64,000 bases of DNA, from positions 1,355,001 to 1,419,000 of the forward strand of contig NZ_CANNEZ010000001.1 of assembly GCF_947503795.1 (NCBI RefSeq), given 5' to 3'. The stretch's first letter is position 1. Every line of letters starts with the position of its first letter. Position numbers and translations under genes: made by a program. This document shows positions 4,408 through 28,366 of this stretch, piece by piece. The stretch is from an uncultured Jannaschia sp. GTDB lineage: Bacteria > Pseudomonadota > Alphaproteobacteria > Rhodobacterales > Rhodobacteraceae. Under the pieces are notes generated by a model, which was given only the letters and a program-made list of their open reading frames with translations, did no database searches and was not told the origin of the DNA.

Positions 4408-4413
4408 CCCGGC

Positions 4414-4869
4414 TCAGTTCTTGACGCGGAAGTCGTCGTGGCAGCCGCCGCAGGACTTGCCGACATCGCCCATCGCGGCCTGCACGCCTTCCAGCCCGTC
4501 GCCGGCCACGGCCTGCAGCGCGGTCACGGCGGTGCCGTAAGCCTCCCAGTCCTCCTGGAAGCCCGCCCAATTCTCGGCGATGGCGGGCAGCGCCCGGGTG
4601 CCCTCGATGCCTAGCGTGTCGGCCGGGAACAGCGGCTCGAGATGCAACATCGACATCGCCACGAGGTTGTCGGCGGCGACCTGTGCCGTGGCTGCGTCAT
4701 ACTCGGCATCGCCGCGCGCCATGCCGCCTACGAGACCCAGATTGTAGCCCACGACCTGCATGGCGCCCTGGCGCGCCTTGATCTGCGGCGGCGCCTCGTG
4801 CGACGCGGCGAGGGCGATGGTTCCGACGGTGCACAGCCCGGCGACGAACGCGATGGTCGAACGATTCAT
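4414..4869 (-). CDS. Cytochrome c' / c-556 family protein
   Basis: A 151-residue periplasmic protein with a signal peptide (MNRSTIAFVAGLCTVGTIALAAS) and a single C-terminal heme motif, CGGCH, followed closely by the end of the protein. That arrangement is diagnostic of the four-helix cytochrome c' family, whose members bind NO or act in electron transfer. The ARQGAMQ segment near the mature N-terminus matches the first helix and supplies a possible Met ligand, as in six-coordinate c-556. The ATG at 4869 is preferred over an earlier in-frame start because it begins the signal peptide and follows a GGGAG ribosome-binding site. It lies downstream of amtB and 6 bp upstream of the diheme cytochrome gene. 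Confidence 0.88.
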   Translation of the reverse strand: MNRSTIAFVAGLCTVGTIALAASHEAPPQIKARQGAMQVVGYNLGLVGGMARGDAEYDAATAQVAADNLVAMSMLHLEPLFPADTLGIEGTRALPAIAENWAGFQEDWEAYGTAVTALQAVAGDGLEGVQAAMGDVGKSCGGCHDDFRVKN

Positions 4870-4888
4870 GACGTAACTCCCATAAGAC

Positions 4889-4915
4889 AACGGGCCGAGC
4901 TTGCGCCCGGCCCGA
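4889..4915 (-). terminator. Possible hairpin terminator between amtB and the cytochrome c' gene
   Basis: On the minus strand a stem GGGCCG/CGGCCC closes a ten-base loop, about 40 bp past the amtB stop. The following sequence is only moderately T-rich (GTTGTCTT). It could separate amtB from the cytochrome genes, or act as a weak attenuator within one transcript. Confidence 0.35.
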
Positions 4916-4954
4916 TGCCAAATCAACCAATGATTTACCTAAGGTAAGCGCGGC

Positions 4955-6130: not shown

Positions 6131-6292
6131 TTCGGTATTCTCCCCCTTCTGTGTCCCGGCCGTGTGGCGAGAGGCGGGTGCCGTTGAAAGAGGCAGGGCT
6201 GCGGCCGGGTGCTGAAAATTGTCGCGATGCGTGATGTGCGCGCCGTTTGTGCGCTCAGACGGCACGATGCCCGCGAATTGGGCGCCGGTGAA

Positions 6293-13134: not shown

Positions 13135-13737
13135 TTAGTCGAACCCGGCGAAGCCCGTGACCTCGACCGGCCGTGCCGGTGTCCCGCCCGAAAGGGCAAT
13201 GCGCACGCCCAACGGCAGGTCCGTGCCGGACCACGTCTCGACGGGCGTGCCATCGGAGTCGAGATAGACGAAGCGCCCCGCCGTCAGCCCGTCGATTACC
13301 GTGACGTCGGCCACCTGCGACCCGGTCGTCGCTCGCAGCGTCTGGACCAGGGCGAGCCCGTCCCCGCCACGTCGCAGCGCAAGCGTCACTTCGCTCAGGC
13401 CCAACGTCCCGAAGCCGCGCCGTGTCACCGCGACGAAGCGGAGCGCGTCCTCGGTGCCGAGCAAGACGGGCGCGTTGGACGCCGCCGCGGCCTCGCCTGC
13501 AACGCGCAGGGGGATGGGGCGGGCGCCTGTGACGGTCCGCGCCACGTGATCGACCGCTGCCGCCATCTGGCCCCGCGTCGCCACCGCGTCGCCCATGCCC
13601 GCGACCGTCCGCATCTGCCCGAGGATGCCGGCCATCATCGCCGACATGATCGCCACGATCGACAGCGCGGCGAGCAGTTCGACCAACACGATCCCGCTGT
13701 CGCGCGGAGCCGCGCCCGACATGCCCTTTGGCCTCAT
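13135..13737 (-). CDS. gspJ: Type II secretion minor pseudopilin GspJ
   Basis: A 200-residue pseudopilin. The prepilin motif is RDSG cleaved before IVLVELLAALSIV, with the conserved Glu at mature position 5 and a long hydrophobic helix. Last in the minus-strand gsp operon, its position and length fit GspJ, part of the pseudopilus tip with GspI and GspK. The ATG at 13737 overlaps the gspI stop (ATGA); a second in-frame ATG at 13722 is nearly as good and would give a shorter leader. The middle of the protein is poorly conserved, so GspJ is assigned from position and size. Confidence 0.8.
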   Translation of the reverse strand: MRPKGMSGAAPRDSGIVLVELLAALSIVAIMSAMMAGILGQMRTVAGMGDAVATRGQMAAAVDHVARTVTGARPIPLRVAGEAAAASNAPVLLGTEDALRFVAVTRRGFGTLGLSEVTLALRRGGDGLALVQTLRATTGSQVADVTVIDGLTAGRFVYLDSDGTPVETWSGTDLPLGVRIALSGGTPARPVEVTGFAGFD

Positions 13738-14099
13738 GGGGCGGCCCCGAGCGCGAAACTCTCGAACCGGTAGGCACGGCTGGCGCCCGCGGGGCGGATC
13801 TCGATCGTGACGGCCAGAAGCGGGATCGCGCCGCCATCGGGCAATTCGCGCGCCACCAGACGCCACGCGCCCCGGTCCTCGAATTCGCCCGTCGTCGCAC
13901 CCAACCCGGTCAGCGCCTGCATCTCGACCGTCGCCACCTCGCGGGCGAGGTCGGCGGCGCGGCTTGCCTCGCTCGCGCCCCGAACGGCGAGCGTCGCCTG
14001 CGAGACCGCGCCGATCGCCGCCGTCAGCCCGACCGCCAGCACGAGGAACGCCACCAGCGTCTCGAGAAGGACGAAGCCCTCGTCGCGCGCATTCGTCAC
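13734..14099 (-). CDS. gspI: Type II secretion minor pseudopilin GspI
   Basis: A 121-residue pseudopilin with a seven-residue leader ending in Gly before FVLLETLVAFLVLAVGL; Glu occupies mature position 5. Length matches GspI, the pseudopilin that seeds the tip complex. It begins with GTG at 14099 and overlaps the gspH stop by four bases (GTGA), and its own stop overlaps gspJ, so translation along the operon is probably coupled. Confidence 0.85.
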   Translation of the reverse strand: MTNARDEGFVLLETLVAFLVLAVGLTAAIGAVSQATLAVRGASEASRAADLAREVATVEMQALTGLGATTGEFEDRGAWRLVARELPDGGAIPLLAVTIEIRPAGASRAYRFESFALGAAP

Positions 14100-14566
14100 G
14101 GCGCGTCACCGCTCAGAAGGCGCGGCAGGCCGGTCAGCCAATCGACCTCGAGCCGCGCCACGGATCCATCCGCAACGAAGGCCAGCTCGGCCCCAGAGGA
14201 ACTGCCGTCCGGGCGAAAGACCAGTGCTGCGGTGCCGCCCTCGACGAAGGGCCGTGCGAGCACGCCGTCGAGCCGCATCCCCGGCGGCAGGCCGATGGGG
14301 TCTGCATCTGGCGGATAGGCGAAGCGGCGCTCCGACAGGTCGATCGCGACCAGCGTGTCCCGGCCGGTCCGCATGGCATCGGCGCGTGCATCGAGGACCA
14401 CCGTCTGCAGCCGTTCGGCCATCTGAACGGGCGAGGGGGCCGGGTCACGCCGTGCCAGTGCCCCCGCGCCCAGGCCCGCGAGGATGCCGAGGATGGCCAG
14501 CGCCACAAGCATCTCGACCAGCGTGAACCCCGCATTGCGGTCGAGACTTGGCGCGGGGGCGGTCAT
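14096..14566 (-). CDS. gspH: Type II secretion minor pseudopilin GspH
   Basis: A 156-residue pseudopilin. The leader ends RNAG and the mature protein starts FTLVEMLVALAILGILAGLG, with Glu at position 5. A short C-terminal beta domain follows (AIDLSERRFAYP, LVFRPDGSSSGAEL), as in GspH, which links the tip complex to the GspG shaft. Start and stop overlap gspF and gspI by four bases each. Confidence 0.87.
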   Translation of the reverse strand: MTAPAPSLDRNAGFTLVEMLVALAILGILAGLGAGALARRDPAPSPVQMAERLQTVVLDARADAMRTGRDTLVAIDLSERRFAYPPDADPIGLPPGMRLDGVLARPFVEGGTAALVFRPDGSSSGAELAFVADGSVARLEVDWLTGLPRLLSGDAP

Positions 14567-15798
14567 CGGATCGCGATCTCGTTGATGCTCAGGAGGGCGG
14601 ACATCACCGATACGACCAGCCCGCCGACCAGCGCGCCCAGCGCGAGCGTGATCGCCGGGGTGAGGAAGGTCAGGAGGCGCGTCATCCGGCGTTGCAGGAG
14701 GCCGTCGATGGTCGAACCCGCGCGGCCCATCATCGCGGCCAGCATGTTCGATTCCTCGCCTAGCCGGAGGAGGGCCGTGACGGGGCCGGGGAACTGGCCC
14801 GTGGCGTCGACGGCCCGCCAGAATGGGGCGCCTTCGGACACCTCCGTCCGGGCGGCCAGAAGGCCCGCGCGCTGCGCCGTCGTGACCGCCGTGGCCGCCG
14901 CCAGGCGCATCGCTTCGAGCATCGGCACGCCGTTCCCGAGAAGGAGCGACATCGTCGTGAGATAGCGCGCGTTGACGCCCGCGCGGATCGCCGCCGCGAT
15001 GCCGGGGACGCGGGCGAGTGCGGCCATCGCGGCATCGCGCCCGCGCGGCGTCCGCATCCACAGCAGGAGCGGCACCGTCAGGGCGAGCGCGCCGACGAGG
15101 ATCAGCAGCCCCGGCCCGGCAACGAAGGCGCCGAAGCCCAGAAGGACGCGGATCACGAGGGGCGATGCGATCCCTGCATTCGCAAAAACAGGCTGGAGCG
15201 CGGGCGCGAGATAGAGGGACAGGAGAAGGAACGCGAAGACCATCACGAGCAGGAGGAAGGCCGGGTAGAGCAGCGCCTCGGTCACCTCACGGCGGCGTGC
15301 GGCACGTCGCGTGTAGCTGTCGGCCAACGTCCGCGTCACGACATCGAGGCGGCCGCTCGTCTCGCCGCTGGCCAGAAGGGCGACGACATCGTCGGTGATC
15401 TCGGGCACCACAGAGAATGCCTCGGCGACCGACTGGCCTTCGGTCAGCCGGGCGTGGACCCCGGCGGCGCGGGCGCGGGGCAGACGTTCGGTTTCGGCAT
15501 CGGCGATGGCGCGGATGGCGACGTCGATCGTGAAGCCCGCGTCGAGCATGACCGAGAGCTCCGCGAAGAACCGCGCGAGATCGAGTCGGCCGCCGAGCCC
15601 GCCGCCCGCGCGCTCGGGTCGGACCGGCCCGGCGGCGGCGGCGCCCGACACGCGGCGCAGCTCGAATGGGGTGCGTCCCGTCAGGCGAAGCTGGCGCGTC
15701 GCGTCGGCCTCGTCGACGGCGTCGAGCGTGCCCGTCTCGACCTCGCCATCCGGGCGGTAGGCCTTGAAGTGGATGCGCTCAATCGCCGACATCGCCAC
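14563..15798 (-). CDS. gspF: Type II secretion inner-membrane platform protein GspF
   Basis: A 411-residue polytopic protein of the GspF/PilC family. Two repeated cytoplasmic T2SSF domains (about residues 70-190 and 270-395) each end in a hydrophobic helix, with ARFFAELSVMLDAGFTI in the first and YLTTMSLLLGNGVPMLEAM in the second. GspF recruits the GspE ATPase to the membrane. The start at 15798 overlaps gspE by 20 bp; an ATG two codons later (15792) is an alternative. Length is as expected for the family. Confidence 0.93.
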   Translation of the reverse strand: MAMSAIERIHFKAYRPDGEVETGTLDAVDEADATRQLRLTGRTPFELRRVSGAAAAGPVRPERAGGGLGGRLDLARFFAELSVMLDAGFTIDVAIRAIADAETERLPRARAAGVHARLTEGQSVAEAFSVVPEITDDVVALLASGETSGRLDVVTRTLADSYTRRAARRREVTEALLYPAFLLLVMVFAFLLLSLYLAPALQPVFANAGIASPLVIRVLLGFGAFVAGPGLLILVGALALTVPLLLWMRTPRGRDAAMAALARVPGIAAAIRAGVNARYLTTMSLLLGNGVPMLEAMRLAAATAVTTAQRAGLLAARTEVSEGAPFWRAVDATGQFPGPVTALLRLGEESNMLAAMMGRAGSTIDGLLQRRMTRLLTFLTPAITLALGALVGGLVVSVMSALLSINEIAIR

Positions 15799-17431
15799 CG
15801 CTCCGCGCGCGGTCGAGGACGCGGCGTACCTCTTCGAGGGCCGTCACGCCGCGCCGCGCGAGCCCTTCGGCATGTGCCGCCATCGGCGTGACACCCCGTG
15901 CGGCGGCCAACGCCTCGAGATCGGCTTCGGTGGCGCCCGTCCCGATCCGGGCGGCGATCTCGCGCGTGACCTCCATCACCTCGTAGGTGACCGTCCGTCC
16001 GGCGAACCCGGTGTCGTGGCAGCGCGCGCAGCCGTCGCCGCCGCACGCGTCGCAGGTCTTCCGAAGCAGGCGCTGGGCCACGACCGCCCGGATCGTCGCG
16101 CCGATCAGGTAGTCGTCGATGCCCATATCGACCAGCCGGGTCAGCGCACCCGCCGCGCTGTTGGTGTGCAGCGTCGAGAACACCAGGTGCCCCGTCAGCG
16201 CCGCCTGGATCGCGATCTGCGCGGTGTCCCGGTCCCGGATCTCGCCCACGAGGATGATGTCGGGGTCATGGCGCAGCACCGAGCGGAGCGCGCGCGCGAA
16301 GGTCAGGTCGATCGCGGGCTCGACCTGAAGCTGGGTGATGCCATCGAGGCGGTATTCGACGGGATCCTCGACAGTGAAGATCTTCACGTCGTCCGACTGC
16401 CGCTCGCGCAGGACCGAGTAGAGCGTTGTCGTCTTGCCGCTGCCGGTCGGGCCGGTCACGAGGATGATCCCGTTGGGCACGCGCGCCAACTGGCGCAGGT
16501 GCGCGGCGGCCTCGGGCGCGTAGCCCAGCGCATCGAGGGTCAGCGCCACGCCGGACCGGTCGAGTATGCGGAGAACGAAGGACTCCCCATGCACCGACGG
16601 CAGGATCGAAACACGCAGGTCGATCTCCTGCCCGCGCACGGTGGCGCGCATCCGGCCGTCCTGCGGCATCCGGCGCTCGGCGATGTTCAATCGCGCGAGG
16701 ATCTTGATGCGGGTGGCAATGCCCGGAAGCATCGCGCGGGGCACGGTCTCGACCACGTCGAGCATCCCGTCGCAGCGCATCCGGATGCAGACGTGATCCG
16801 CGCGCGGCTCGATATGGAGGTCGGTCGCGCCCCGGTCGACGGCCGTCTGGATGACCTGCGTGACGAAGCGGATCACGGGCGCCTCGCGGGCGATGTCCTG
16901 CAGGCGTTCGAGGTCCTCGCCGTCGCCGTCCTCGGGAGTGGCGGCGCGCGGGGTCGGCGGAGGTGCGGTGTCCTGACCCGAGAGCATGCGGAGGGCATCG
17001 AGAATGCGGCTCCGGGGACAGACGCGCAGCTCGACCGGCCGGTCGAAGCTGTAGCCGAGGATCTCGGCGCCGTCGGTCGCGAACGGATCCGCGACGGCGA
17101 CGACGAGCGCGTCGTCGGTCATCTCCAGCGGAAGGATCTGGTGGGTGTCGAGGAAGGACAGCCCCGCGCGATCGATCAGCGCGGGGTCGAGTGCGCCCGT
17201 GTCGATCCGCGCCTCGGCAAGGCCGAGAAACGCCGCCATGTGCCGCGCAAGGTCGCTCTCGCGGGCCAGCCCCAGTTCGATCAGCACCGTGTCGGCCGGA
17301 TGGTCGGTCGAAGCGCGGCCGTTGCGGGCACGCTGGCTCGCCTCGGGCCGCAGGACACCCTGGCCTTCCAGATGGGTGAGGAAGCGTTCGAACCCGTCGC
17401 GCGGGGTGTCCGTGCCGGGTCGGATATTCAT
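15779..17431 (-). CDS. gspE: Type II secretion ATPase GspE
   Basis: A 550-residue hexameric ATPase that powers pseudopilus assembly. An N-terminal GspE/MshE domain (about residues 1-150) is followed by the ATPase core, with Walker A GPTGSGKTTTLY, Asp box TVEDPVEYRLDGI, Walker B DIILVGEIRD and His box STLHTNSA. A compact Cys cluster, CDACGGDGCARC, lies near the C-terminus; its CxxC-x4-CxxC spacing is shorter than the CxxC-x29-CxxC of classic GspE and more like the PilB/MshE type, but should still bind zinc. The ATG at 17431 overlaps the gspK stop (ATGA). Confidence 0.94.
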   Translation of the reverse strand: MNIRPGTDTPRDGFERFLTHLEGQGVLRPEASQRARNGRASTDHPADTVLIELGLARESDLARHMAAFLGLAEARIDTGALDPALIDRAGLSFLDTHQILPLEMTDDALVVAVADPFATDGAEILGYSFDRPVELRVCPRSRILDALRMLSGQDTAPPPTPRAATPEDGDGEDLERLQDIAREAPVIRFVTQVIQTAVDRGATDLHIEPRADHVCIRMRCDGMLDVVETVPRAMLPGIATRIKILARLNIAERRMPQDGRMRATVRGQEIDLRVSILPSVHGESFVLRILDRSGVALTLDALGYAPEAAAHLRQLARVPNGIILVTGPTGSGKTTTLYSVLRERQSDDVKIFTVEDPVEYRLDGITQLQVEPAIDLTFARALRSVLRHDPDIILVGEIRDRDTAQIAIQAALTGHLVFSTLHTNSAAGALTRLVDMGIDDYLIGATIRAVVAQRLLRKTCDACGGDGCARCHDTGFAGRTVTYEVMEVTREIAARIGTGATEADLEALAAARGVTPMAAHAEGLARRGVTALEEVRRVLDRARSGGDVGD

Positions 17432-18324
17432 GCCGTCCCCTCCCTGAGATGGACCGTGACGCCCGGACCGAACAGCGCCGCACATCCGGGGATCACGGCG
17501 TCAGGCGGGGCTGCGATCGCGCGTCCGGGGGCGACGCTTCGCTCCAGCGTGATCGCCGCGCCCCGACGCTCCTCGACGATGCGGCCCGAGTAGCCCAGCG
17601 TGTCGTCGCCCGCCCGTACGAAGATGTCGATGCGGACAGGCGTGCCGGAGGATGGCTCGTCCTCCAGAAGGTTGCTGCGGCCCAGCACGGCGGCCAACGG
17701 GGCCGGCAGGCGCGCGGCGGTCGCGCGCGGCTGGTCGGAATGGACGGTGAAGGTGCCCGTCAGGCGGTCGATGGGAAGCTCGGCCAGGACGGGAAAGGCG
17801 TGCAACTCCTCGACCGCCGCGAAGGGGGCCTGCTTGAGGCCGTCGCGCAGTTGATGGTCGGCGAGGGGCGGCGCGTCGTCGTCCGGCGGCGTGCGGTAGG
17901 CGAGGATCGCGTCCGCTTGCTCGGCCGCCGCCGCCGCCGACAGCCCGAGCGACCGGAGCGCCAGCACCAGAAGCTCGCGCCCGGCGGCGTTGAGATCGAC
18001 GAGACCCTGCTGGTCCTGCACCCGGAGGAGGATCGTCAGGTCGCCTTCGCGGCATGCGGCGGGGTTGGCATTGAGCGCAAAGGGCGGGGCGGTCTCGGTG
18101 GCTTCTGCGATGAAGACCGCCCGCGCCGCCACGCGCCCCAGCCCCTCGGCCAAGAGGTCGAGCCGGGCTTCGGCGACGCCGTCGCGCGCCTGATCGAGCC
18201 CCGCGCGTGCGGCGAGGACGAAGCCCGTCATCATGGTCGTGACCACCAGAAGGAACACGACGACCGCCAAGAGGGCGAAGCCGTCCTCGGCGGGCCGGGA
18301 TGCGGGGGGCGCGACCGGCGCCAT
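17428..18324 (-). CDS. gspK: Type II secretion minor pseudopilin GspK
   Basis: A 298-residue protein with a leader ending EDG before FALLAVVVFLLVVTTMMTG. It lacks the Glu at mature position 5 found in the other pseudopilins, which is characteristic of GspK, the tip subunit that needs no shaft partner above it. The SAM-like alpha-helical domain is visible in the middle (LVDLNAAGRELLVLALRSLG, with ILAYRTPPDDD). It abuts the upstream gspC-like gene with no gap and overlaps gspE downstream. Confidence 0.88.
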   Translation of the reverse strand: MAPVAPPASRPAEDGFALLAVVVFLLVVTTMMTGFVLAARAGLDQARDGVAEARLDLLAEGLGRVAARAVFIAEATETAPPFALNANPAACREGDLTILLRVQDQQGLVDLNAAGRELLVLALRSLGLSAAAAAEQADAILAYRTPPDDDAPPLADHQLRDGLKQAPFAAVEELHAFPVLAELPIDRLTGTFTVHSDQPRATAARLPAPLAAVLGRSNLLEDEPSSGTPVRIDIFVRAGDDTLGYSGRIVEERRGAAITLERSVAPGRAIAAPPDAVIPGCAALFGPGVTVHLREGTA

Positions 18325-18849
18325 CTAGGGCCGCGCCCCGTCGCCATGAAGGCCGAGCGGCACGACATGATCGTCCTGACGCACGGTGACGGAGCCCGCG
18401 TCGATCTCGCTGACCGTCCAGTTCCACGCGACCTCGCCCTCGCGGAGCCAGATGGTCTCGAACCCCTCGGGCGCGCCCAGCAGGACGCGCGACTGCCCGT
18501 CCGACCGTGCCACACCGATGAGGCGGGGTGCGATCGGATCGGGTTCGGGCGGCGGGGGCGGTGGGGGCGCCGGCGCGGCGACCACCGGCGGCGGAGGCGG
18601 CGGCGGTGCGGGCGGCGGCTGCCACGGACGGCGCGTCTCGGTGAAGAGCGGGCGGGACAGGACCTGGTTGCGGTCGAGGGCCGCCACGTCCAGCGGACCC
18701 GCATCCTGCGGCGCGGTCTCGGGGCCCGCGTCGGGTCGGGCAGGCGCGTATGGCGAGACGTCGAGGGGCGTCATCGCCACCTCGTGGACCTTCGCCCCGA
18801 TGGCCAGCGCGGCGGCAAGCGCCAGGAGGATGAGGACCACCATCCTCAT
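18325..18849 (-). CDS. gspC: GspC-like type II secretion protein
   Basis: A 174-residue bitopic protein. One N-terminal helix (residues 4-20) is followed by a periplasmic linker with two poly-proline stretches (about residues 77-103), then a small beta domain (RLIGVARSDGQSRVLL to DHVVPLGL) that resembles the homology region of GspC/PulP proteins. GspC couples the inner-membrane platform to the secretin through that domain. No PDZ or coiled-coil domain follows, so this is the short form. Position within the operon supports the call; similarity outside the fold is low. It overlaps gspM by four bases. Confidence 0.7.
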   Translation of the reverse strand: MRMVVLILLALAAALAIGAKVHEVAMTPLDVSPYAPARPDAGPETAPQDAGPLDVAALDRNQVLSRPLFTETRRPWQPPPAPPPPPPPVVAAPAPPPPPPPEPDPIAPRLIGVARSDGQSRVLLGAPEGFETIWLREGEVAWNWTVSEIDAGSVTVRQDDHVVPLGLHGDGARP

Positions 18850-19427
18850 TGCGCGACCTCGAGATCGGGCGGCAGCGCGCCCTCGATCAGAAGCTCCATC
18901 GACAGAATCGTCGGATCGGCCGCGTCGGGGTCGCCCGGCGCGGTCGCAGCGTCGATGCGGGCGGTGCGGATCGTCTGGTAGGGCACCGCGCTCTCGATGG
19001 CGAAGACGGTCTCGACGATCTCGGCATTGGTGCCGCTCATGCGGGCCCGGAGGCCCGCGAACCGGGTTCCGTCGCGTTCCGTGACAGGCGCGTTGCCGAC
19101 GGCCAGAAGGTCGACGCCGCTGGCGGCCGCGATCTCGCCCAGCCGGCCCTGGAACGCGGCTTGGATCAGCGCGGGGCTGGCGCCCGGCAGGAATTCGGGG
19201 GCGTCAGCCGGGCGCGGCGCCGTCGCGCCGGGTGTCGCGGCGATGAGGCGCTGGAGGTTGCCGAGATTGGCCCGTTCCGCCGCGATGCGGTCGGCGGTCG
19301 CGTCGAGCCGGTCGCGCGCCAGCCCCACGGCCCCGGCGACCAGCGCGATCGCCAACACCGGGGCCATGGCGGCCACGGCCAGTCGCAGGGCGCGAGGGGC
19401 GTTGAGAAGGGAGGTGCGGCTATCCAT
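18846..19427 (-). CDS. gspM: GspM-like type II secretion protein
   Basis: A 193-residue protein with a short cytoplasmic N-terminus, one helix (about residues 17-39), a helical segment, and a ferredoxin-like periplasmic domain at the C-terminus. This is the GspM layout, and GspM partners GspL in the platform. The ATG at 19427 is chosen because it overlaps gspL by eight bases and starts MDSRTSLLNAPRALR; an upstream in-frame start would lie deeper inside gspL. GspM is weakly conserved, so the assignment rests on topology and position. Confidence 0.75.
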   Translation of the reverse strand: MDSRTSLLNAPRALRLAVAAMAPVLAIALVAGAVGLARDRLDATADRIAAERANLGNLQRLIAATPGATAPRPADAPEFLPGASPALIQAAFQGRLGEIAAASGVDLLAVGNAPVTERDGTRFAGLRARMSGTNAEIVETVFAIESAVPYQTIRTARIDAATAPGDPDAADPTILSMELLIEGALPPDLEVAQ

Positions 19428-20460
19428 CGGCGCTCGCCGTCTCGAGGGTGATGGTAAAGCGCTCGTCGAGGCTGCCCGCATCGCGGAGCACGGGCTGGGT
19501 AAAGGTCGGCGCGCGAAAGAGGTCCGAGTCCTCGAGAAGGGGGATCAGCCGCGCCGCGCCCGAGGTCTGGCCCGTCAGCGTGACGGTGCCATCATCGACG
19601 TCGATCCGGGTCAGCCAGGTGCCGTCGGGCAGGGCGAGGGCCAGTTCCTCGAGGATGCGGACGAGCGGGACGGCCTGGCTCTTGGCCTCGCGCACCGAGG
19701 CGATGCGGCCGATCTCTTCGGTGCGGGCGCGCATATCGGCGCGAACCTTCGACGCCTCGGCCTCGGCCGCGGCGATCTCGACACCGAGCGCGTCCAGCGC
19801 CCTGTTCTGCTGCCACGCTGTGACGCCGCCGAGCGCGATCAGCCCGAAAATTGAGGCGGCGACGGCGCCCCAGAAGAGGCGATGCGCCATGCGGCGCATT
19901 CGGGCGGGGCGGCGCAACGCGGCGAGGCTTGGGGCGTCGGCCACGAATACGCCATCGGGCGTCGCCATGGCGAGCCGTCCGATCTCGATACGCGCGGCGG
20001 CAAGACTTGCGCGGATCGGCTCGAACTGGTCGCGCCGCAACAGGAAATAGACGCTGGCTGCGTGGTCCCGACGGTACTCGGGCAGTACGAGGATGCAGTC
20101 TTCCTCGCGCAGCGGCGTCGCGCCCGCGCAATCGATGCGCGCCATCGCGCGCATCCGGCTGCGGGGCAGGCGCAGGGGCGAGAGCTTGCGTTGCAGGTGG
20201 CGGTCCGGCTCGACCACGACATCGACGACGGGCGAGCGCAGCCGCCGCGGCAGCCGCCGGAGCGCGGCACCGATCTCAGCTGGCTTAACCACTTCGGGCG
20301 GGCGGCGCTGTGTCTCGATGGACACACCGGCGCGCGAGACGCGGAGCAGGGGGCGCGCCCCCGCCGCGGCAACCGATCGACGGCGCGACACGAGGGAGGA
20401 CAGCTCCCACGACCACCAGCGGCCGATGTCCGCCACATAGTCGATCACACCTGTAACCAT
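19420..20460 (-). CDS. gspL: GspL-like type II secretion protein (PilN domain)
   Basis: A 346-residue protein that opens the minus-strand gsp operon. A cytoplasmic actin-like region (residues 1-185) precedes one membrane helix (about 195-215, LFWGAVAASIFGLIALGG), a coiled-coil stretch rich in Ala and Glu, and a C-terminal PilN/GspL ferredoxin-like domain (ILEELALALPDGTWLTRIDV). GspL anchors the GspE ATPase. The ATG at 20460 has an AAGGG ribosome-binding site. It faces gspD across a 384-bp gap. Confidence 0.82.
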   Translation of the reverse strand: MVTGVIDYVADIGRWWSWELSSLVSRRRSVAAAGARPLLRVSRAGVSIETQRRPPEVVKPAEIGAALRRLPRRLRSPVVDVVVEPDRHLQRKLSPLRLPRSRMRAMARIDCAGATPLREEDCILVLPEYRRDHAASVYFLLRRDQFEPIRASLAAARIEIGRLAMATPDGVFVADAPSLAALRRPARMRRMAHRLFWGAVAASIFGLIALGGVTAWQQNRALDALGVEIAAAEAEASKVRADMRARTEEIGRIASVREAKSQAVPLVRILEELALALPDGTWLTRIDVDDGTVTLTGQTSGAARLIPLLEDSDLFRAPTFTQPVLRDAGSLDERFTITLETASADG

Positions 20461-20844
20461 TACCCTTTTCGCCCTCTCGGCAGCAGTTCCGTCCCCACGG
20501 TGGAGGCCGAGTATAGCCGATTTTCCCGCGACGGGCAGGCCGTCCGTTCGGCGGGGTTCGGACGGAACACATTCGGGCCCGGATGCATCACTCCGGGGCC
20601 CGTTCCGCGCGAAATGTGCAAAAAACGTGACAGACCGGATGCATCTGTTAACCTCGCTCGCAAAACAACCGGCGAAAATGTCGGAAAGGCGAGGGCGACG
20701 TACGGCCAGAGAATCGGCGCGCCCAAGAGGTTGGCAGCACGTTCAGGCGAGTACAGGCATGTATCACGATGCACCGTTCGGAGGTGGCGACCCGCGGGTT
20801 GCCGATATGACCGCTATGGAACCGGCCCGATACGGGCCGCGACC
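20461..20844. promoter_or_regulatory. Divergent control region of the two gsp operons
   Basis: These 384 bp separate gspL and gspD and must hold both promoters. I found no convincing small gene. An 11-bp direct repeat, CCGGATGCATC, occurs at 20579-20589 and 20635-20645 (start-to-start 56 bp), and the first copy also forms a small hairpin with CTCCGG. Near the gspD side an alternating CCCGATACGGG element lies 15 bp before the start. Confidence 0.5.
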
Positions 20845-22920
20845 ATGAGCGCCCGAACCTGGAAGCGCACCCTCATTGTTGCCACGCTGGCGACGGTTCT
20901 GGCCAGTTGTGCGGGCGACGAGGCCGGCGTCAGCCGTCTCGATACGCTGCTGGGCGGCTTGGGCGCAGGCGATGGCGCCACGCGCACCGCCAACGCCGCG
21001 GGCGGCTGGAGCGGCGTGCCGGGGGCCACGTCGGGCACGGGCCGCACCGGCTCGGGCGTCTTTCTGGGCGCCGGCAATCCACCGATCCGGCGCGAGCCGA
21101 CCTTCGGCGGCGACGAGGGGTTCCAGCTCAACCTCGTGGACGCGCCGATCCCGGCGGCGGCGCAGTTCATCCTCGGCGATACGCTCGACCTAAACTATGT
21201 CGTGGACCCGGACCTGCCGGGCACGATTACCCTCCAGACCAGCTCGCCCGTCAGTCGCGAGGCCCTGATCGACATCTTCGAGATCACCCTCGCCGCCAAC
21301 GGCTACGCCATCGTCGAAAACGCCGACATCTACCGCATCGTGCAGTCGAACGCGGCCATCGCGAACACCCCGCCCGTCAGCGTGCCCGCGCTTCAGGCCA
21401 GCGCGCCGGGCATGCGCGTCCTCGCCGTGCCGCTGGCCTATATCGCGGCCGAGGAGATGCGCGACATCCTCACCCCGATCAGCCAGCCGGGTTCGATCCT
21501 GCGCTTCGACAGCGTGCGCAACTACCTTCTCCTCGCCGGATCGCAGGCGGAACTGTCGTCGATGCTCGATGCCATCTCGGTCTTCGATGTCGACTGGATG
21601 CGCGGCAAGTCCGTGGCGCTCCATCCGCTAAAGGACGCAGCACCCCAGGCGGTCGCCTCGCAGCTTGAGGAGATCTTCCGCAGCTCCGACGGGGCCACGG
21701 CTGACGTGATCCGCTTCGTGCCCAACGAGCAGTTGGGTTCGATCCTCGTCGTGACCTCGCAGCCGCATTACCTGCCGCGTGCGAGCGAATGGATCCGGAA
21801 GCTCGACACGATCGGCGGCGCGGGGTCGGACCGGCTCTTCGTCTATCCGGTGCAGAACCGCCCGGCCGAGGAGTTGGCCCGCGTGCTGCAATCGGTACTG
21901 GGCGGCGGGTCGGACGGCGCGGTCTCGCCCGGTCTGGGCGAGGTCGAGGTGGCCAGCGCCGACGGCGTTGACCCGACCTTCGTGGGCCTGACGGCCGATC
22001 CCGATCTGGGTGCAAGCGTGTCCTCCAGTGTGGTCGCCGATACCGAGAACAACTCCCTTCTCATCAGCGCCACCGCCGAGGAATACCGGCGGCTGGAGCC
22101 CGTCCTGCGGCGGCTCGACACGGTGGCCACGCAGGTCATGCTCGAGGCCGTCATCGTCGAGGTCTCGCTCAACGACACGCTGCGCTTCGGCGTTCGCTGG
22201 TTCCTCGAGAACGGGTCCGCCACACGCGGATTCGACAGCGCGCTCGAGCCGAACTTCCCCGGCTTCTCATGGAACAGCGCGCTGGGCGATTTCCGCTCCA
22301 CCATCAATGCGTTGTCGAGCGTGACGGATGTGAACGTGATCTCGACGCCGACGCTGATGGCGCTGAACAATCAAGAGGCGATCCTCCAGATCGGCGATCA
22401 GGTGCCCGTCGTCACGCGCACCGCCGAGAGCGCCGACGATCCCGACGCGCGTATCGTCAGTGCGGTCGAGCTGCGTGACACGGGCATCATCCTGAACGTC
22501 GTGCCGCGCGTGAACGCCCATGGCGGCGTGCTTCTCGACATCGACCAAGAGGCGAGCCGCGTCGTCGCGACGACGTCGTCCGGGATCGATTCCCCCACGA
22601 TCCAGCAGCGACGCCTGCGGACGCGAGTGTCGGTCATGGACGGGGAATCGGTCGTCCTCGGCGGTCTGATCCAGGAGGGGACGCAGCGCACCAAGAACGG
22701 CGTGCCGGTCCTCAGCGACGTGCCGGTGGTCGGCAATCTCTTCCGCGACCGCCGCGACCGTCGCGAGCGGACGGAGCTTCTGATCTTCGTGCGGCCCCAG
22801 ATCATCCGCGACGCCCATGCCGCACGGCGGGTCAGCGACGAGTTCCGCCAGCGGCTCGACTTCGGCCGCAGCGAGACGCCGCAGCAGCGCCGTCAGCGCG
22901 ATCTTCGCCGCCTGCGCTGA
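20845..22920 (+). CDS. gspD: Type II secretion secretin GspD, with lipobox
   Basis: A 691-residue outer-membrane secretin. It begins with a signal ending in a lipobox, LASC, with Cys at residue 22, so the mature protein should be lipidated. A Gly/Thr-rich linker leads to N0 (about 93-165, FQLNLVDAPIPAAAQFIL), then N1-N3 repeats, and the secretin channel domain (about 430-660) with VISTPTLMALNNQEA and the signature VPVLSDVPVVGNLFR. Classical GspD needs a separate pilotin; lipidated secretins such as HxcQ pilot themselves. No pilotin gene is visible here. The ATG at 20845 is chosen because it starts the signal peptide. Confidence 0.93.
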   Translation: MSARTWKRTLIVATLATVLASCAGDEAGVSRLDTLLGGLGAGDGATRTANAAGGWSGVPGATSGTGRTGSGVFLGAGNPPIRREPTFGGDEGFQLNLVDAPIPAAAQFILGDTLDLNYVVDPDLPGTITLQTSSPVSREALIDIFEITLAANGYAIVENADIYRIVQSNAAIANTPPVSVPALQASAPGMRVLAVPLAYIAAEEMRDILTPISQPGSILRFDSVRNYLLLAGSQAELSSMLDAISVFDVDWMRGKSVALHPLKDAAPQAVASQLEEIFRSSDGATADVIRFVPNEQLGSILVVTSQPHYLPRASEWIRKLDTIGGAGSDRLFVYPVQNRPAEELARVLQSVLGGGSDGAVSPGLGEVEVASADGVDPTFVGLTADPDLGASVSSSVVADTENNSLLISATAEEYRRLEPVLRRLDTVATQVMLEAVIVEVSLNDTLRFGVRWFLENGSATRGFDSALEPNFPGFSWNSALGDFRSTINALSSVTDVNVISTPTLMALNNQEAILQIGDQVPVVTRTAESADDPDARIVSAVELRDTGIILNVVPRVNAHGGVLLDIDQEASRVVATTSSGIDSPTIQQRRLRTRVSVMDGESVVLGGLIQEGTQRTKNGVPVLSDVPVVGNLFRDRRDRRERTELLIFVRPQIIRDAHAARRVSDEFRQRLDFGRSETPQQRRQRDLRRLR

Positions 22921-22935: not shown

Positions 22936-23430
22936 ATGACGGTCGGGATTGTCGTCGCCGGCGGGGCGCTTCTGGCGATCCTCGGCGCGATCGCGGTCAT
23001 CGACCTGCGGACCCGGCGCATTCCCGACCCGCTGAACGTGGCGCTCGCGCTTTCGGGGCTGGCGGCGGCACTGGTGCTCGACGGGCAGGTGCCGTGGCCG
23101 TCGCTGCTTGCGGCGACGGTGGTGGGCGCGGCACTCTGGATCATCGCCGAGATCTTCCGCCGCCGCCGTGGACTGACGGGCCTCGGGCTGGGCGACATCA
23201 AGATGATCGCCGCTGCCGCACTCTGGGTCAGCCCGTGGAACCTGCCGCTCGTGCTCGTGGTCGCGACCGTCGGCGCGCTTGTCGCCGTTGGGGTCGGAGC
23301 GGTCGCGGGGCGCCGGACGGACCGGTTGACGCGCATCCCGTTTGGGCCGTTCATCGGGCTGGGCCTGATGCTGACATGGATCCTCGAACGGTCGGGGCTG
23401 CCAATGCTGGCGCCCGCGGGGGTATGGTAA
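22936..23430 (+). CDS. gspO: Prepilin peptidase, short form (GspO-like, A24 family)
   Basis: A 164-residue polytopic aspartic peptidase. The two catalytic Asp motifs are visible: IDLRTRRIPDPLN near residue 24 and the GLGDIKM motif of type IV prepilin peptidases. It lacks the N-terminal cytosolic Cys domain and N-methylation half of classical PilD/GspO (about 260-290 residues), so it probably cleaves but may not methylate. It starts 15 bp after gspD and ends 1 bp before gspG, which places it with the pseudopilin it would process. Confidence 0.85.
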   Translation: MTVGIVVAGGALLAILGAIAVIDLRTRRIPDPLNVALALSGLAAALVLDGQVPWPSLLAATVVGAALWIIAEIFRRRRGLTGLGLGDIKMIAAAALWVSPWNLPLVLVVATVGALVAVGVGAVAGRRTDRLTRIPFGPFIGLGLMLTWILERSGLPMLAPAGVW

Positions 23431-23431
23431 G

Positions 23432-23887
23432 ATGGATCGCAAGCTATCGAAGACGCGACGGTGTCGGGACGCGGACGCGGAGCGCGATGCGGGCTTCACG
23501 CTGATCGAGCTGCTGGTCGTCCTGTCGATCATCGTCCTCCTTGGCGGCATCGTCGCGCCGCAGGTGCTGCGCTATCTCGGCTCGGCGCGCAGCGAGGCCG
23601 CCCAGACCCAGATCCGCAATATCGAGAGCGCGCTTGAATTGTTCCTGATCGACAACTTCCGCTACCCGACCACCGAGGAGGGGCTCGATGTCCTCGCCGA
23701 ACCGACGCCCGCGCTGGCGGCGCGGTGGAAGGGTCCGTATCTCCAGAATGCCGACGCGCTGGTCGATCCATGGGGAGCCGCGTATATCTACGAAAGCGAC
23801 GATGGCGCGGTCCGAATCACCTCGTTCGGTCGCGACGGCAGCCCCGGTGGAGAGGGCGAAGATCGCGACATTTCGAACAGCAGATAG
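23432..23887 (+). CDS. gspG: Type II secretion major pseudopilin GspG
   Basis: A 151-residue pseudopilin that forms the shaft of the pseudopilus. The prepilin site lies after a longer than usual 21-residue leader: RDAG is followed by FTLIELLVVLSIIVLLGGIV, with Glu at mature position 5. The C-terminal domain carries the GspG hallmarks YPTTEEGLDVL, WKGPYLQNADALVDPWG and a final Asp-rich calcium site (FGRDGSPGGEGEDRDI). It follows the peptidase gene by one base. Confidence 0.95.
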   Translation: MDRKLSKTRRCRDADAERDAGFTLIELLVVLSIIVLLGGIVAPQVLRYLGSARSEAAQTQIRNIESALELFLIDNFRYPTTEEGLDVLAEPTPALAARWKGPYLQNADALVDPWGAAYIYESDDGAVRITSFGRDGSPGGEGEDRDISNSR

Positions 23888-24104: not shown

Positions 24105-26423
24105 ATGTATCTTCCGAAAGACGCGTCACGCACGCAGATCCGCGAAGCCGAAAACGCACGTCGCAATCGCGCAGAAATCGTTCAGGCCCTGTCCATCGGG
24201 GACGTCACCCGGCGCGAGCTCTTCAAGTGGGGCACGTTCACGGGGCTGGGCCTCCTGGCCGAGGTCAACGGCCTGAGCCCCTTCGCCCGCAGCGCCAGCG
24301 CGCAGAACATCCCGACCGGGACGCCGCTCAGCCCGCTCTTCGGGGCGCAGCCCTACACGCAGGAGATGCCGCGGCTGAGCCTTCAGACTCCGCACGACAT
24401 GACGCCGATCAAGCGCGAGAACGAGGTCGATGTCTACGCGCGGGGCCGGTGGTGGCCGCCCGCACGGCGCCTGTCATATCATACTGAGTTCACGGATAGC
24501 GGCGGCACCGAGAACGTGAATCCCTATTACCATTACGGCCCGCAGGAGGGCCGCCCGCCGGGTGAGTATTTCGCCCATCAGCGGTGGGAGGAGTACCTTC
24601 CGCAGAAGGGCTTCATGCTCACGCTGGGCCGCGCCGCCTCGGGTGTGCGCTTCCATCCAAGCATGCCAGACCAGGAGCCGGACAAGGTCTGGACCTTCGG
24701 CAGCAATCGCAACACGCGCTCGCGCCTTCCGCCGCCGCTCATGAAGCTGCGCTACGGCGAGCCTGTGGTGCTTCGGAACTACAACCGGCTCCTGCCGAAC
24801 CCGACCCGCAACGGTGGCTTCGGCAGCAACAGCCAGTCGACCCACAATCACAATGCCCACAATGCGTCGGGCAGCGATGGCGCGTCGAACGCGCATTTCT
24901 ATCCGGGTCAGTTCTACGACTACCACTGGTCGACCACGCTTGCGCGGGCCGACATGATCAACACCGACGCGTCCGATCGCCGGGCCTCGGGTCCCGATGG
25001 CGCCGGCGGGCTGACCCTTGTTCCGGGCGACTACCGCGAGCTTCAGGGCTCGCTCTGGTTCCACGATCACCGGTTCTTCTACACGGCCGAGAACGTCTAC
25101 AAGGGCCATCTCGGGATGCTGAACTACTACAGCGGACCCGACCGGGGCCACGAGGGAATGGACGACGGCGTCAACCTGCGCCTGCCTTCGGGCACGACGC
25201 TGGACTGGGGGAATATCGACTTCGACGTGAACCTGATCGTGTCGGACGCCGCCACCGACCAGGAAGGCCAGTACTTCTTCGACATCTTCAACACCGATGG
25301 CTTCTGCGGTGACATGATGATGGTGAATTTCGCCTACAAGCCGTATTTCGACGTGCTGCCGCGGAAGTACCGGTTCCGTATCCTCTCGGCGGGCATGTCG
25401 CGCTTCGTCGAGCTGGGGCTCGTCAACGAGCAGGGCAATCCGGTTCCGATGAAGGTGATCTCGACCGACGGAAACTTCCTCGTGAACCCCGTGACGGTCA
25501 ATCGCCTCGACCCGCAAGGGCCGGGCGAGCGCTTCGACGTCGTGGTCGACTTCTCGGTCTTCCAGCCAGGCAACCGGATCTACATGCTCAACTCGATGGA
25601 GCATGACGACGGACGCGGGCCGAAGGGATCGCTCCGCCTGCGCGATGTCATGCGGATGAAGACGGACGATCCGGCCGTCGGCGGGATCATGGAATTCCGC
25701 GTCGTCGACGAGGTTGAAAGCGCCGATGCGCCGGGGACGGTCATACGGGCGGCCAACCACACCGATTACAGCCACGTGCCGGGTCGCCTGACCGATCCGA
25801 TCCCGATCGTGGCCCCGGTCCGGACCCGGCACATCGAATGGAAGGGTGCCGACGGTCGCGATGACGAGCTGGAAGGACCGTGCTTCCCCGATTGCGGGGA
25901 CAAGGAATCCTTCGGCTGGACGATCAAGATCAACGGCGAGGCGAACCACTTCTTCAACGCCAACCGGTCGTCGCTCATCATCCCTGAGCCGGGCGAGGTC
26001 GAGCATTGGATCCTCGAGAATGGCGGCGGCGGCTGGGATCATCCCGCGCATCTCCACCTTGAGGAGGGCGTCACGCTGGATCGCGGCGGCCGGCCGCTCA
26101 GCCCGATCGAGCGGCAGAATCCGCGCAAGGACGTCTGGCGTCTGGGCGAGAAAGGGACTGTCAACATCCAGGTGCGGTTCGGCGAGTTCGGCGGGGCCTA
26201 CGTCACGCATTGCCACAACACCGTCCACGAGGACTGGGCGATGCTCTTCCGCTACGACGTGATGACGGACCCGGATAATCCGGACAACTCGCAGACCCAT
26301 GTCGAGATGATCCCGACGCCGAAGCCATCGCCCTACGGCGTCACCTATGTCACGCCGGAGGTGCTGCCCGAGGGAAATCCCTTCGACGAGGATTTCGACC
26401 CGTTCCCGTCGGGGGACGCATGA
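24105..26423 (+). CDS. Tat-exported multicopper oxidase
   Basis: A 772-residue multicopper oxidase. All four copper motifs are intact: H247-x-H249 (THNHNAH), H320-x-H322 (WFHDH), HPAHLH at 646-651, and HCHNTVHEDWAM at 702-713, which supplies the type 1 Cys703 and axial Met713. A twin-arginine signal (TRRELFKWG, residues 35-43) sits behind a long n-region and ends with ASA near residue 66, so the folded enzyme is exported to the periplasm. At over 700 mature residues it is longer than CueO or CopA. The ATG at 24105 is preferred to a TTG two codons earlier. It overlaps by four bases a SCO/cytochrome c gene, suggesting that electrons from oxidised metal or substrate leave through cytochrome. The substrate is unknown; manganese, copper and iron are candidates. 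Confidence 0.88.
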   Translation: MYLPKDASRTQIREAENARRNRAEIVQALSIGDVTRRELFKWGTFTGLGLLAEVNGLSPFARSASAQNIPTGTPLSPLFGAQPYTQEMPRLSLQTPHDMTPIKRENEVDVYARGRWWPPARRLSYHTEFTDSGGTENVNPYYHYGPQEGRPPGEYFAHQRWEEYLPQKGFMLTLGRAASGVRFHPSMPDQEPDKVWTFGSNRNTRSRLPPPLMKLRYGEPVVLRNYNRLLPNPTRNGGFGSNSQSTHNHNAHNASGSDGASNAHFYPGQFYDYHWSTTLARADMINTDASDRRASGPDGAGGLTLVPGDYRELQGSLWFHDHRFFYTAENVYKGHLGMLNYYSGPDRGHEGMDDGVNLRLPSGTTLDWGNIDFDVNLIVSDAATDQEGQYFFDIFNTDGFCGDMMMVNFAYKPYFDVLPRKYRFRILSAGMSRFVELGLVNEQGNPVPMKVISTDGNFLVNPVTVNRLDPQGPGERFDVVVDFSVFQPGNRIYMLNSMEHDDGRGPKGSLRLRDVMRMKTDDPAVGGIMEFRVVDEVESADAPGTVIRAANHTDYSHVPGRLTDPIPIVAPVRTRHIEWKGADGRDDELEGPCFPDCGDKESFGWTIKINGEANHFFNANRSSLIIPEPGEVEHWILENGGGGWDHPAHLHLEEGVTLDRGGRPLSPIERQNPRKDVWRLGEKGTVNIQVRFGEFGGAYVTHCHNTVHEDWAMLFRYDVMTDPDNPDNSQTHVEMIPTPKPSPYGVTYVTPEVLPEGNPFDEDFDPFPSGDA

Positions 26424-27520
26424 CGGGCCTGCAGCGCGTGGCGCGCTGGCTGGGGGTCGCGGCGCTCTGCGCCGTGGCCACCGCGATCCCGAGCGGAGAG
26501 GCTGAGGCCGATCTCTGGGACCGCGACTACTTCACCAACGCCCCGCTGGTCACGCAGGACGGCGAGACGGTGCGGTTCTATGACGATCTGATCGCCGACA
26601 AGATCGTCGTCGTCAGCTTCATCTATACCGACTGCCCCGATATCTGCGGGCTCTCGACGGCGCGGCTGGCGCAGATCGTCGACTGGCTGGGCGCGCGGGT
26701 TGGGCAGGACATCTTCGTCTACTCGATCAGCATCGACCCCGAGACCGACACGCCCGAGCGGCTGAAGTCCTATGCGGCCGCGTTCGGCGCGGAGAACCGC
26801 GAGGGATGGACGTTCCTGACCGGCACGCGTGCCGATATCGACGTCGTGCGTCACAAGCTGGGCGAGCGCAGCCGCTTCCTTGGTGAGCATCGCAGCGACA
26901 TGGTGATCGGCAACGGATCGACCGGCCAGTGGCGTCGGACGTCCCTGATGGGCAGCCTCGTGGTCGCGACGACCGAGATCCTCGAACTCGACCCCACCTA
27001 CATCCCGCCGAAGCCCGTGCTCGCGTCTCTGTCAGACGCGCCCGAAGAGCCGCTGGTCATTCGCAACACGCGGGGGGAGGGGATGTTCATCACCGCCTGC
27101 GCCGCCTGCCATACGATCGGCGACGGCGTGCGCGTCGGACCCGATCTTGCAGGGGTGACACTCCGACGCGACCGCGACTGGCTCAAGCGCTACCTTCAGG
27201 ATCCCGACCAGATGCTGGCAACCCACGATCCCGTGGCCATGGCTCTCGACGCCGAATTCCCGGACGTGATCATGCCCGATCTCGGCCTCGAAGCGGCAGA
27301 CGCCTCCGACCTGATCCACTACCTCGAGGCGAGGACCGTGGCACTCGGCGCGCCGATGACCGAAATGCCGTCGCATGACGACCATGACCACGACCATGAT
27401 CACGGCGCGGCCCATGACGATCATGCGGATCACGGCGATCACGCGGCCTTGGACGACCACGCCGCGCATGCCGACCACGCGGATCATTCCGAACACGATA
27501 CGCACGCCGACCATCACTGA
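26420..27520 (+). CDS. SCO1-like / cytochrome c fusion with His-rich tail
   Basis: A 366-residue exported fusion. After a signal peptide (ending near EAEA) comes a thioredoxin-fold SCO domain with the copper-binding Cys pair CPDIC (C72, C76). The His that completes the SCO copper site appears to be replaced by Asn165 (MVIGNGS), judged by eye. Residues 210-310 form a class I cytochrome c domain with CAACH (227-231) and PDVIMPDLG as the Met ligand region. Residues 319-366 are a His/Asp-rich tail holding 17 His. The gene overlaps the multicopper oxidase gene by four bases, so the two probably form one copper-loading and electron-transfer unit in the periplasm. Confidence 0.85.
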   Translation: MTGLQRVARWLGVAALCAVATAIPSGEAEADLWDRDYFTNAPLVTQDGETVRFYDDLIADKIVVVSFIYTDCPDICGLSTARLAQIVDWLGARVGQDIFVYSISIDPETDTPERLKSYAAAFGAENREGWTFLTGTRADIDVVRHKLGERSRFLGEHRSDMVIGNGSTGQWRRTSLMGSLVVATTEILELDPTYIPPKPVLASLSDAPEEPLVIRNTRGEGMFITACAACHTIGDGVRVGPDLAGVTLRRDRDWLKRYLQDPDQMLATHDPVAMALDAEFPDVIMPDLGLEAADASDLIHYLEARTVALGAPMTEMPSHDDHDHDHDHGAAHDDHADHGDHAALDDHAAHADHADHSEHDTHADHH

Positions 27521-27754: not shown

Positions 27755-28366
27755 ATGGACACGGGTCTGCCCGCGTCGGCGCGGGCGGCGAAGAAAATCG
27801 ATTCGGGGGACGATGACTTGACGCGTGCGGATCGCACAAGGGCGACCCAGGAGGTCTCGCGCATCCTCGAGACGCTGCTCCACCGCGAGCGGTCGTCGCC
27901 CCCGCCCGACGCGGCGGGGCCGCGGCCCACCTCGGACCTCGTGCGCCTCGTGATCGCCGACCTTCCGGATCCCCGGATCTCACCCGAAGATGTCATTGCC
28001 GAGATCCGGGCCCGGTTCCCCAGCGCGCAGGTCCTGTTCGTCGCGCCGCAGGACGGCGCACCCGTCGCCGACGCGGTCCCTGTCCATCCGGTGCCGTCCG
28101 ACACCACCCGAAATCCGCGTCCCGCCCGGACTGCCGCCAAGGCCGACACCTTCCCGCGCCAGTTCTCGGCCCGCCAGACGCAGGTGCTGCGGGGACTGGT
28201 GCGCGGTCTTTCAAACAAGGCGATCGCGCGCGACCTCGATCTGGCCGAGTCGACGGTGAAGGTGCACGTCACGACCATCTACCGCGCCCTCGGGGTGAAC
28301 AGCCGCGCCGCGGCGATCGCACTGGTGATGACGTCCGACGCGCTTCGGGCCGAGCTCGACATCTGA
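27755..28366 (+). CDS. LuxR/FixJ-type HTH regulator without recognisable receiver
   Basis: A 203-residue protein whose last 65 residues form a LuxR/NarL helix-turn-helix (FSARQTQVLRGLVRGLSNKA, then ESTVKVHVTTIYRALGVNSR). The N-terminal half has a faint alpha/beta pattern (DLVRLVIADLP, PSAQVLFVAP) but no acidic pocket of a response regulator, and no autoinducer domain. The start is uncertain: ATG at 27755 has a poor ribosome-binding site, whereas a TTG at 27818 follows GGGGGAC. The upstream FNR-like box and the location after the copper oxidase operon hint at a redox-related role, which is inference only. Confidence 0.72.
   Translation: MDTGLPASARAAKKIDSGDDDLTRADRTRATQEVSRILETLLHRERSSPPPDAAGPRPTSDLVRLVIADLPDPRISPEDVIAEIRARFPSAQVLFVAPQDGAPVADAVPVHPVPSDTTRNPRPARTAAKADTFPRQFSARQTQVLRGLVRGLSNKAIARDLDLAESTVKVHVTTIYRALGVNSRAAAIALVMTSDALRAELDI

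Follow-up and report, generated by a model that had tools for sequence, protein, structure and literature searches.

Results

Architecture of the gene pair

We analysed a 64,000-nucleotide stretch (the window) of contig NZ_CANNEZ010000001.1 from an uncultured Jannaschia sp. of the Rhodobacteraceae, in which a gene for a multicopper oxidase (MCO) is followed directly by a gene for a protein that joins an SCO1-like domain to a cytochrome c domain. The MCO open reading frame (ORF) occupies window positions 24105..26423 of the + strand (772 aa), and the fusion ORF positions 26420..27520 of the same strand (366 aa), the two sharing the four bases ATGA. The SCO1-SenC profile PF02630 covers residues 43-147 of the fusion (E 4.4e-20; 72.5 bits versus a curated cut-off of 22.8) and the Cytochrom_C profile PF00034 residues 218-303 (E 4.3e-08). 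Combined with structure comparison, these matches place a thioredoxin-like SCO domain at residues ~43-175 (26546..26944), including the two copper-ligand cysteines of C72-P-D-I-C76 (26633..26647), and a cytochrome c domain at residues 217-303 (27068..27328), with the heme motif CAACH at 227-231 and Met285 as the probable axial ligand. The C-terminal tail (residues 318-366; 27371..27517) comprises 49 residues, of which 17 are His and 15 Asp. An AlphaFold2 model of residues 33-362 had a mean pLDDT of 85.2, with low confidence in the tail, suggesting that the tail is probably disordered. The preliminary description of this DNA had reported a fusion of an SCO1-like domain, a cytochrome c and a 17-His tail, overlapping the oxidase gene by four bases. 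All of this was found, and its reading of the sequence was correct on every point save a claim about one copper ligand, considered below.

The MCO is bilirubin-oxidase-like. Its nearest solved structures are bilirubin oxidases (PDB search, E 4.4e-34), and it matches PF07731 (E 7.5e-14) and PF00394 (E 2.4e-04). All four copper motifs are present within their usual contexts, HNH (247), HDH (320), HLH (649) and HCH (702), the type 1 axial position is Met, and the protein contains HCHxxxHxxxxM. Across 36 MCOs of the window type, HxH was present in 36, W[FYI]HDH in 33, WxHPxHxH in 34 and HCHxxxHxxxx[ML] in 35. A twin-arginine-like (Tat-like) signal, TRRELFKWG, was read by eye in the window MCO. About 35 residues (MYLPKDASRTQIREAENARRN...) precede this signal (24105-24215), and a loose pattern for a similar N-terminus was matched in 36 of 79 MCOs of the pairs.

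The SCO copper site

Asn165 (26912..26914) had been taken, from an alignment by eye, to stand in place of the His that is the third copper ligand of SCO proteins. We aligned a profile of 53 fusion proteins (of 57 chosen representatives) with a profile of 15 ordinary SCO proteins using hhalign. The invariant ligand His of ordinary SCO proteins fell on His157 (26888..26890), eight residues before Asn165 (probability 99.6, E 3.4e-24). The column of Asn165 is Asn also in the ordinary SCO of the window genome, eight residues past the ligand His of that protein. In the AlphaFold2 model, His157 lies in the loop preceding a strand (model residues 128-133) that is closed by Asn165 (model residue 133). 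Cys72, Cys76 and His157 are invariant in all 88 fusion ORFs collected as described in the next section, and position 165 is N in 80, D in 4, H in 2, I in 1 and S in 1. The conservation of the SCO ligands is not there by construction, because the scan by which most of the ORFs were collected had its pattern in the heme motif (conservation of CxxCH is built in). Using VIA-align, the SCO half matched human SCO1 (2ggt) with a Z of 19.2 and an rmsd of 2.4 over 152 aligned residues, and B. japonicum ScoI (4wbj) and an Aquifex protein (3me7) with Z about 19; the next-best folds were thiol-disulfide oxidoreductase and peroxiredoxin, with Z about 14. Loss of the third ligand was rejected on these grounds: a different conserved His sits at the ligand position, and the triad C72/C76/H157 is whole. 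Judged by alignment and model, the fusion combines an intact SCO copper site with a cytochrome c. The presence of the third ligand makes copper loading likelier than a copper-free relay.

Linkage to the multicopper oxidase among relatives

A scan for relatives gave at least 588 candidate stretches, 452 of which encoded relatives. The best 80 of the 452 (79 loci), four plasmid loci (L010-L013) and the window made up a set of 84 loci with 88 fusion ORFs, recorded as belonging to Alpha-, Beta- and Gammaproteobacteria, Nitrospira, Acidobacteria, Myxococcota, Planctomycetota, Syntrophobacteraceae and others. Eight SCO ORFs below 150 bits were left out (five heme-less partners of a sister MCO type, described below, and three others), as were L083, L089 and L090 from the neighbour count, their fusion ORFs being too close to a contig end. 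Of the 85 fusion ORFs with room for one, 83 had an MCO directly upstream in the same orientation, in several phyla, compared to none of 36 ordinary SCO loci, used as a control and covered to roughly 1.5 kb on either side of the match. On this comparison we rejected a chance neighbourhood of the two genes. The window pair thus recurs in other genomes, as had been proposed for checking, and the linkage supports the earlier view of the fusion as a dedicated MCO partner rather than a general cytochrome oxidase assembly factor.

Among 394 genomes of the family, searched for the MCO at E 1e-25 and for the fusion at E 1e-40, both genes occurred in the same three, namely the window's genome, G008 and G391; the sole same-genus genome listed (G595) had neither at these thresholds. 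The protein distances of MCO and fusion were correlated (Spearman 0.75 over 79 pairs, 4 of 83 being omitted where the MCO frame was not >550 residues), with the same nearest neighbour in 58 of the 79. For the alphaproteobacterial locus L033, Nitrospira pairs were among the nearest for both genes, suggesting that the pair may travel as a unit. The linkage of MCO and fusion is real and widespread. It is also what is new here, the fusion family itself being already known (PDB 2l4d).

Several Burkholderiales loci (L013:5953-9143, L012, L078, L084 and L098) have a gene for a MauG/CCP-type diheme peroxidase near the MCO and the fusion, and some of them encode, between the two, a small protein of no known Pfam family.

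A sister oxidase type and ordinary SCO proteins

In a sister MCO type (L014, L038, L041, L042 and L078), the oxidase gene is followed by an SCO gene whose product has C-x3-C and a His but no heme motif, in 5/5 complete cases (4/4 without L014, which was found through its SCO; L044 is cut by a contig end). This suggests that the SCO domain is the common partner of these oxidases and the heme domain an addition. An ordinary SCO match was present in each of 23 fusion-bearing genomes searched (best E about 6e-39 or lower), and the heme motif was absent from all 30 ordinary SCO proteins checked in fusion-bearing genomes. The window genome likewise has an ordinary SCO besides the fusion, two SCO genes in the whole genome, one of them at the locus.

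Two MCO-SCO pairs follow each other in L038:6374-19523 (Nitrospira sp. CG24C), the first with the heme fusion. The two are separated by a gene whose 680-aa product has DUF5666 and Ig-like domains, and GspG-F-E genes come after. By its size and place, the 680-aa protein could be a counterpart of IoxC from the iodide-oxidising cluster discussed below. Two MCO-SCO pairs are also present in L041 and L042.

The heme domain and the C-terminal tail

The heme half has a solved relative in P. putida pp3183 (PDB 2l4d), annotated 'SCO1/SenC family protein/cytochrome c', with 48% identity over 98 residues (VIA-align) and an E of 1e-22 for 2l4d_A in the PDB search. The 2l4d entry covers the heme domain alone, as a chain of 110 residues, so that the likeness of pp3183 to the fusion is one of heme domain and name. 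On these matches and that to PF02630, the window gene is placed in the SCO-cytochrome c fusion family typified by pp3183 and in SCO1/SenC. Met285 is kept in 88/88 fusion ORFs. The tail is most markedly His-rich in Limimaricola, Paracoccus, Loktanella, Rubellimicrobium and the window, and other members have shorter runs of His. In two Acidobacteria relatives (L076:4964-6043 and L081:1547-2566) a heavy-metal-binding domain (HMBD, PF19335) occupies the site of the tail. The occurrence of a His-rich tail and an HMBD at the same place suggests that both serve in metal holding. The fusion ORFs of L063, L101, L069 and L072 have extra C-terminal regions of 98 to 180 residues past the cytochrome domain.

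Type II secretion and peroxidase genes

Type II secretion genes adjoin the pair in the window, at 13.7-23.9 kb and on both strands, the + strand set being upstream of the MCO. On the + strand are an ORF for the secretin GspD (19882-22920, true start probably later; TIGR02517, 454 bits versus a cut-off of 351), a prepilin-peptidase-like gene (22936-23430; recognised by eye, no NCBIfam match) and the pseudopilin gene gspG (23432-23887; TIGR01710, 121 bits versus a cut-off of 89). On the - strand are genes for an I-like pseudopilin (13734-14099; weak NCBIfam match), GspF (14563-15798) and GspE (15779-17485), both best NCBIfam matches below cut-off, an ORF with no NCBIfam match (17428-18324), a GspC-like protein (18325-18849; weak NCBIfam match) and GspM (18846-19481; above the curated NCBIfam cut-off). 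At least two kinds of GspD/E/F/G match were found in 24 of the 84 fusion loci and at least one in 26; a peroxidase match was found in 11 of 84.

GspD was detected in 42 of the 394 family genomes and animal-type heme peroxidase in 34, the three fusion genomes being included in both groups. Across fusion-bearing genomes, GspD was present in 19/22 and the peroxidase in 22/25. Within the Rhodobacteraceae, GspD was present in 13/16 fusion-bearing versus 39/391 fusion-less genomes (Fisher p 2e-10) and the peroxidase in 14/16 versus 31/391 (p 5e-13), both p-values ignoring relatedness, with five of the 16 being Limimaricola and the 16 not drawn at random. GspD and An_peroxidase occurred together in 6 of the 394 genomes, only 3 of them with the fusion, and the combination was therefore rejected as unique to fusion genomes.

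In the window genome, the peroxidase ORF encodes 2916 residues and gives two sets of animal-heme-peroxidase matches (L137:2081-10831, - strand; contig C2:413580-422330). By eye, we recognised RTX-like repeats within the ORF and an adjacent ABC exporter-like gene. This protein resembles the architecture of MopA-type Mn(II) oxidases as described in the consulted part of PMC6247904. The source of L033, MnTg02, is a metagenome-assembled genome from a ferromanganese crust and a putative Mn oxidiser according to its authors (consulted part of PMC6839870). The MopA-like peroxidase and the origin of L033 make Mn(II) our leading guess for the substrate of the MCO, with iodide or phenols next.

Other genes in the window

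A gene for a LuxR/GerE-type regulator lies downstream of the pair (27755..28366, + strand; PF00196, E 3.6e-17). We dropped it as a candidate regulator; LuxR-like matches occur near few relatives only, and the gene is probably outside the conserved MCO-fusion unit. At 3520-6265 (- strand), a row of genes encodes a cytochrome c matched by Cytochrom_C in two stretches, a cytochrome c-prime and an ammonium transporter.

Discussion

A proposed copper-loading partner of the oxidase

We propose, with a probability of roughly 0.6, that the fusion works in the periplasm as a dedicated partner that loads copper into the adjacent, probably exported MCO, with the heme domain as a built-in redox partner. 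This proposal draws on the intact triad C72/C76/H157, the heme motif and conserved Met, the metal-binding tail and the keeping of the pair across phyla, and also on the iox cluster as a published parallel that pairs an MCO with SCO1/SenC and gsp genes (consulted part of PMC9415286). In such a mechanism the MCO would reach the periplasm folded, by the Tat route, and the SCO domain would pass copper to its sites there. The cytochrome domain would give or take an electron, so that the Cys pair stays reduced or copper remains in the Cu(I) state, while the His/Asp tail, or the HMBD in some relatives, would hold or gather copper. In lineages with neighbouring type II secretion genes, the loaded oxidase would then be exported and its substrate oxidised outside the cell. 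The preliminary description had left the choice between a copper-loading and an electron-relay partner; loading is favoured by the intact ligand triad, and the premise of a missing ligand falls away.

Several observations weigh against this proposal. To our knowledge, the SCO chaperones studied so far do not need a heme domain. Most of the long His-rich tails belong to a single group of Rhodobacteraceae. The loose Tat pattern was matched in 27/36 window-type and 29/51 MCO12-type oxidases and in 0/5 of the sister type. Two fusion ORFs lack the upstream MCO: L057 has none in 9.5 kb upstream, and L025 has none either, though its genome holds a second fusion gene, for a protein with a His-rich tail, that follows an MCO gene; a GspE-like gene (recognised by eye) comes before it and GspD after it. 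No Gsp match was found in 58 of the 84 loci, some with short flanks and most outside the Alphaproteobacteria. Among the 16 fusion-bearing Rhodobacteraceae, GspD was below threshold in 3; the Limimaricola genomes L028 and L049 have neither GspD nor the peroxidase, and L037 has no GspD at threshold. The sets are also not independent, as they contain five Limimaricola genomes and other close relatives, and they overlap (L040 and G008 belong to one genome, and the coordinates of L011 match G391).

Three other explanations were considered. In the first, the cytochrome c domain is an electron relay linking the respiratory chain to the MCO or to the substrate of the MCO, with the SCO domain as a redox or docking module. 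The invariance of Met285 would suit such a role, and in metal-oxidiser clusters, namely MofC/OmpB and Slit_1812-1818 (consulted parts of PMC5566968 and PMC12016527), genes for MCO and SCO1/SenC are joined by cytochrome c genes, with MofC beside MofA having been proposed to act in this way. Against it, the three copper ligands are all kept, and the sister MCO type manages with an SCO partner that has no heme motif. Furthermore, an MCO passes its electrons to O2 and requires no other acceptor. We regard a relay as unlikely, the best placed of the three all the same.

In the second, the fusion is a thiol-disulfide or peroxide-handling redox protein that shields the oxidase or the periplasm, its copper binding being incidental. 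This fits the thioredoxin-like fold, the next-best structural matches and the frequency of heme peroxidases in the same genomes. Set against these are the higher Z scores with SCO crystal structures, the invariant third ligand, and the metal-binding tails or HMBD of some members, which together make this role improbable. The third, an ordinary assembly factor of the cytochrome oxidase CuA site that stands beside the MCO by chance, could appeal to the SCO1-SenC membership, the full triad and a review which refers to Banci et al. 2011, among other work, for SCO homologues that serve cbb3 oxidase in P. putida and two further bacteria (PMC3817396, whose consulted part does not say which P. putida SCO), but is very hard to reconcile with the linkage to an MCO, the separate SCO of the ordinary type that the window genome and all 23 fusion-bearing genomes searched possess, and the presence of the fusion in only 3 of 394 family genomes.

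Comparison with known systems

The copper-loading proposal can be set beside several described systems. The SCO1/ScoI chaperones of cytochrome oxidase have the fold and the copper triad in common with the fusion, which differs from them by its added heme domain and tail and by the linkage of its gene to an MCO. The iox cluster of Iodidimonas contains ioxA (MCO), three SCO1/SenC genes (ioxB, ioxD and ioxF), ioxC, ioxE and adjoining gsp genes (consulted part of PMC9415286), and iodide oxidase is described as extracellular in the consulted part of PMC5928188. The window likewise has an MCO, an SCO1/SenC gene and flanking gsp genes, as compared by the published layout. In contrast, there are three SCO genes in iox and one at the window locus, IoxA is 62 kDa and the window MCO about 86 kDa by length, and the consulted text mentions no heme fusion for iox. 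Iodide oxidase is also represented by IoxA/IoxC of Roseovarius sp. A-2. We do not class the window locus as an iox cluster, although the layout is alike, because it has one SCO gene rather than three, the comparison being one of layout and not of Iox sequence. A class-level search with the Nitrospira MCO for an iox-like cluster gave 0/289 at E 1e-60, and a Roseovarius plasmid match had SCO genes with cytochrome-biogenesis genes and no annotated MCO.

In P. putida GB-1 and Pseudomonas sp. OF001, the mnxG operon, which is involved in Mn(II) oxidation, includes a gene for an 'SCO family protein' (consulted part of PMC8218464); its likeness to the window is by gene description only, and no heme fusion is mentioned there. 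OmpB/MofA clusters (consulted part of PMC5566968) and Slit_1812-1818 of Sideroxydans ES-1 (consulted part of PMC12016527) bring an MCO predicted to be extracellular together with a cytochrome c gene, several of them also with an SCO1/SenC gene. SCO and cytochrome are separate genes there, whereas they are fused in the window. By analogy, the window arrangement appears to follow the same plan as the iox, mnx and mof-type clusters, except that a single protein carries both SCO and cytochrome. Our literature search found no paper uniting SCO, a multicopper oxidase, a c-type cytochrome, type II secretion and a peroxidase, which does not prove its absence from print.

A wider picture is more tentative and, in our estimate, probably does not hold in full. 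The pair may form part of a conserved, mobile 'extracellular oxidation' unit, in which a type II-secreted MCO is metallated by an SCO chaperone with its own heme reductase domain and, in many Rhodobacteraceae, stands alongside a giant RTX-type MopA-like heme peroxidase, oxidising Mn(II) or halides.

Implications

If the pair serves plain copper loading, it would be a fused variant of the arrangement known from iox, mnx and mof-type clusters, and of moderate interest. SCO proteins have been studied mostly as assembly factors of cytochrome oxidase, and the heme-fused SCO branch behind an MCO gene offers a testable case of SCO-dependent copper loading of another enzyme. It also opens a genetic route to oxidases that metal or iodide oxidisers may secrete, and would hint at the purpose of the cytochrome domain in the solved pp3183 protein. 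Should the proposal be true, cytochrome-coupled copper delivery to an enzyme other than cytochrome oxidase would be, as far as the literature searched shows, a new mode of copper loading.

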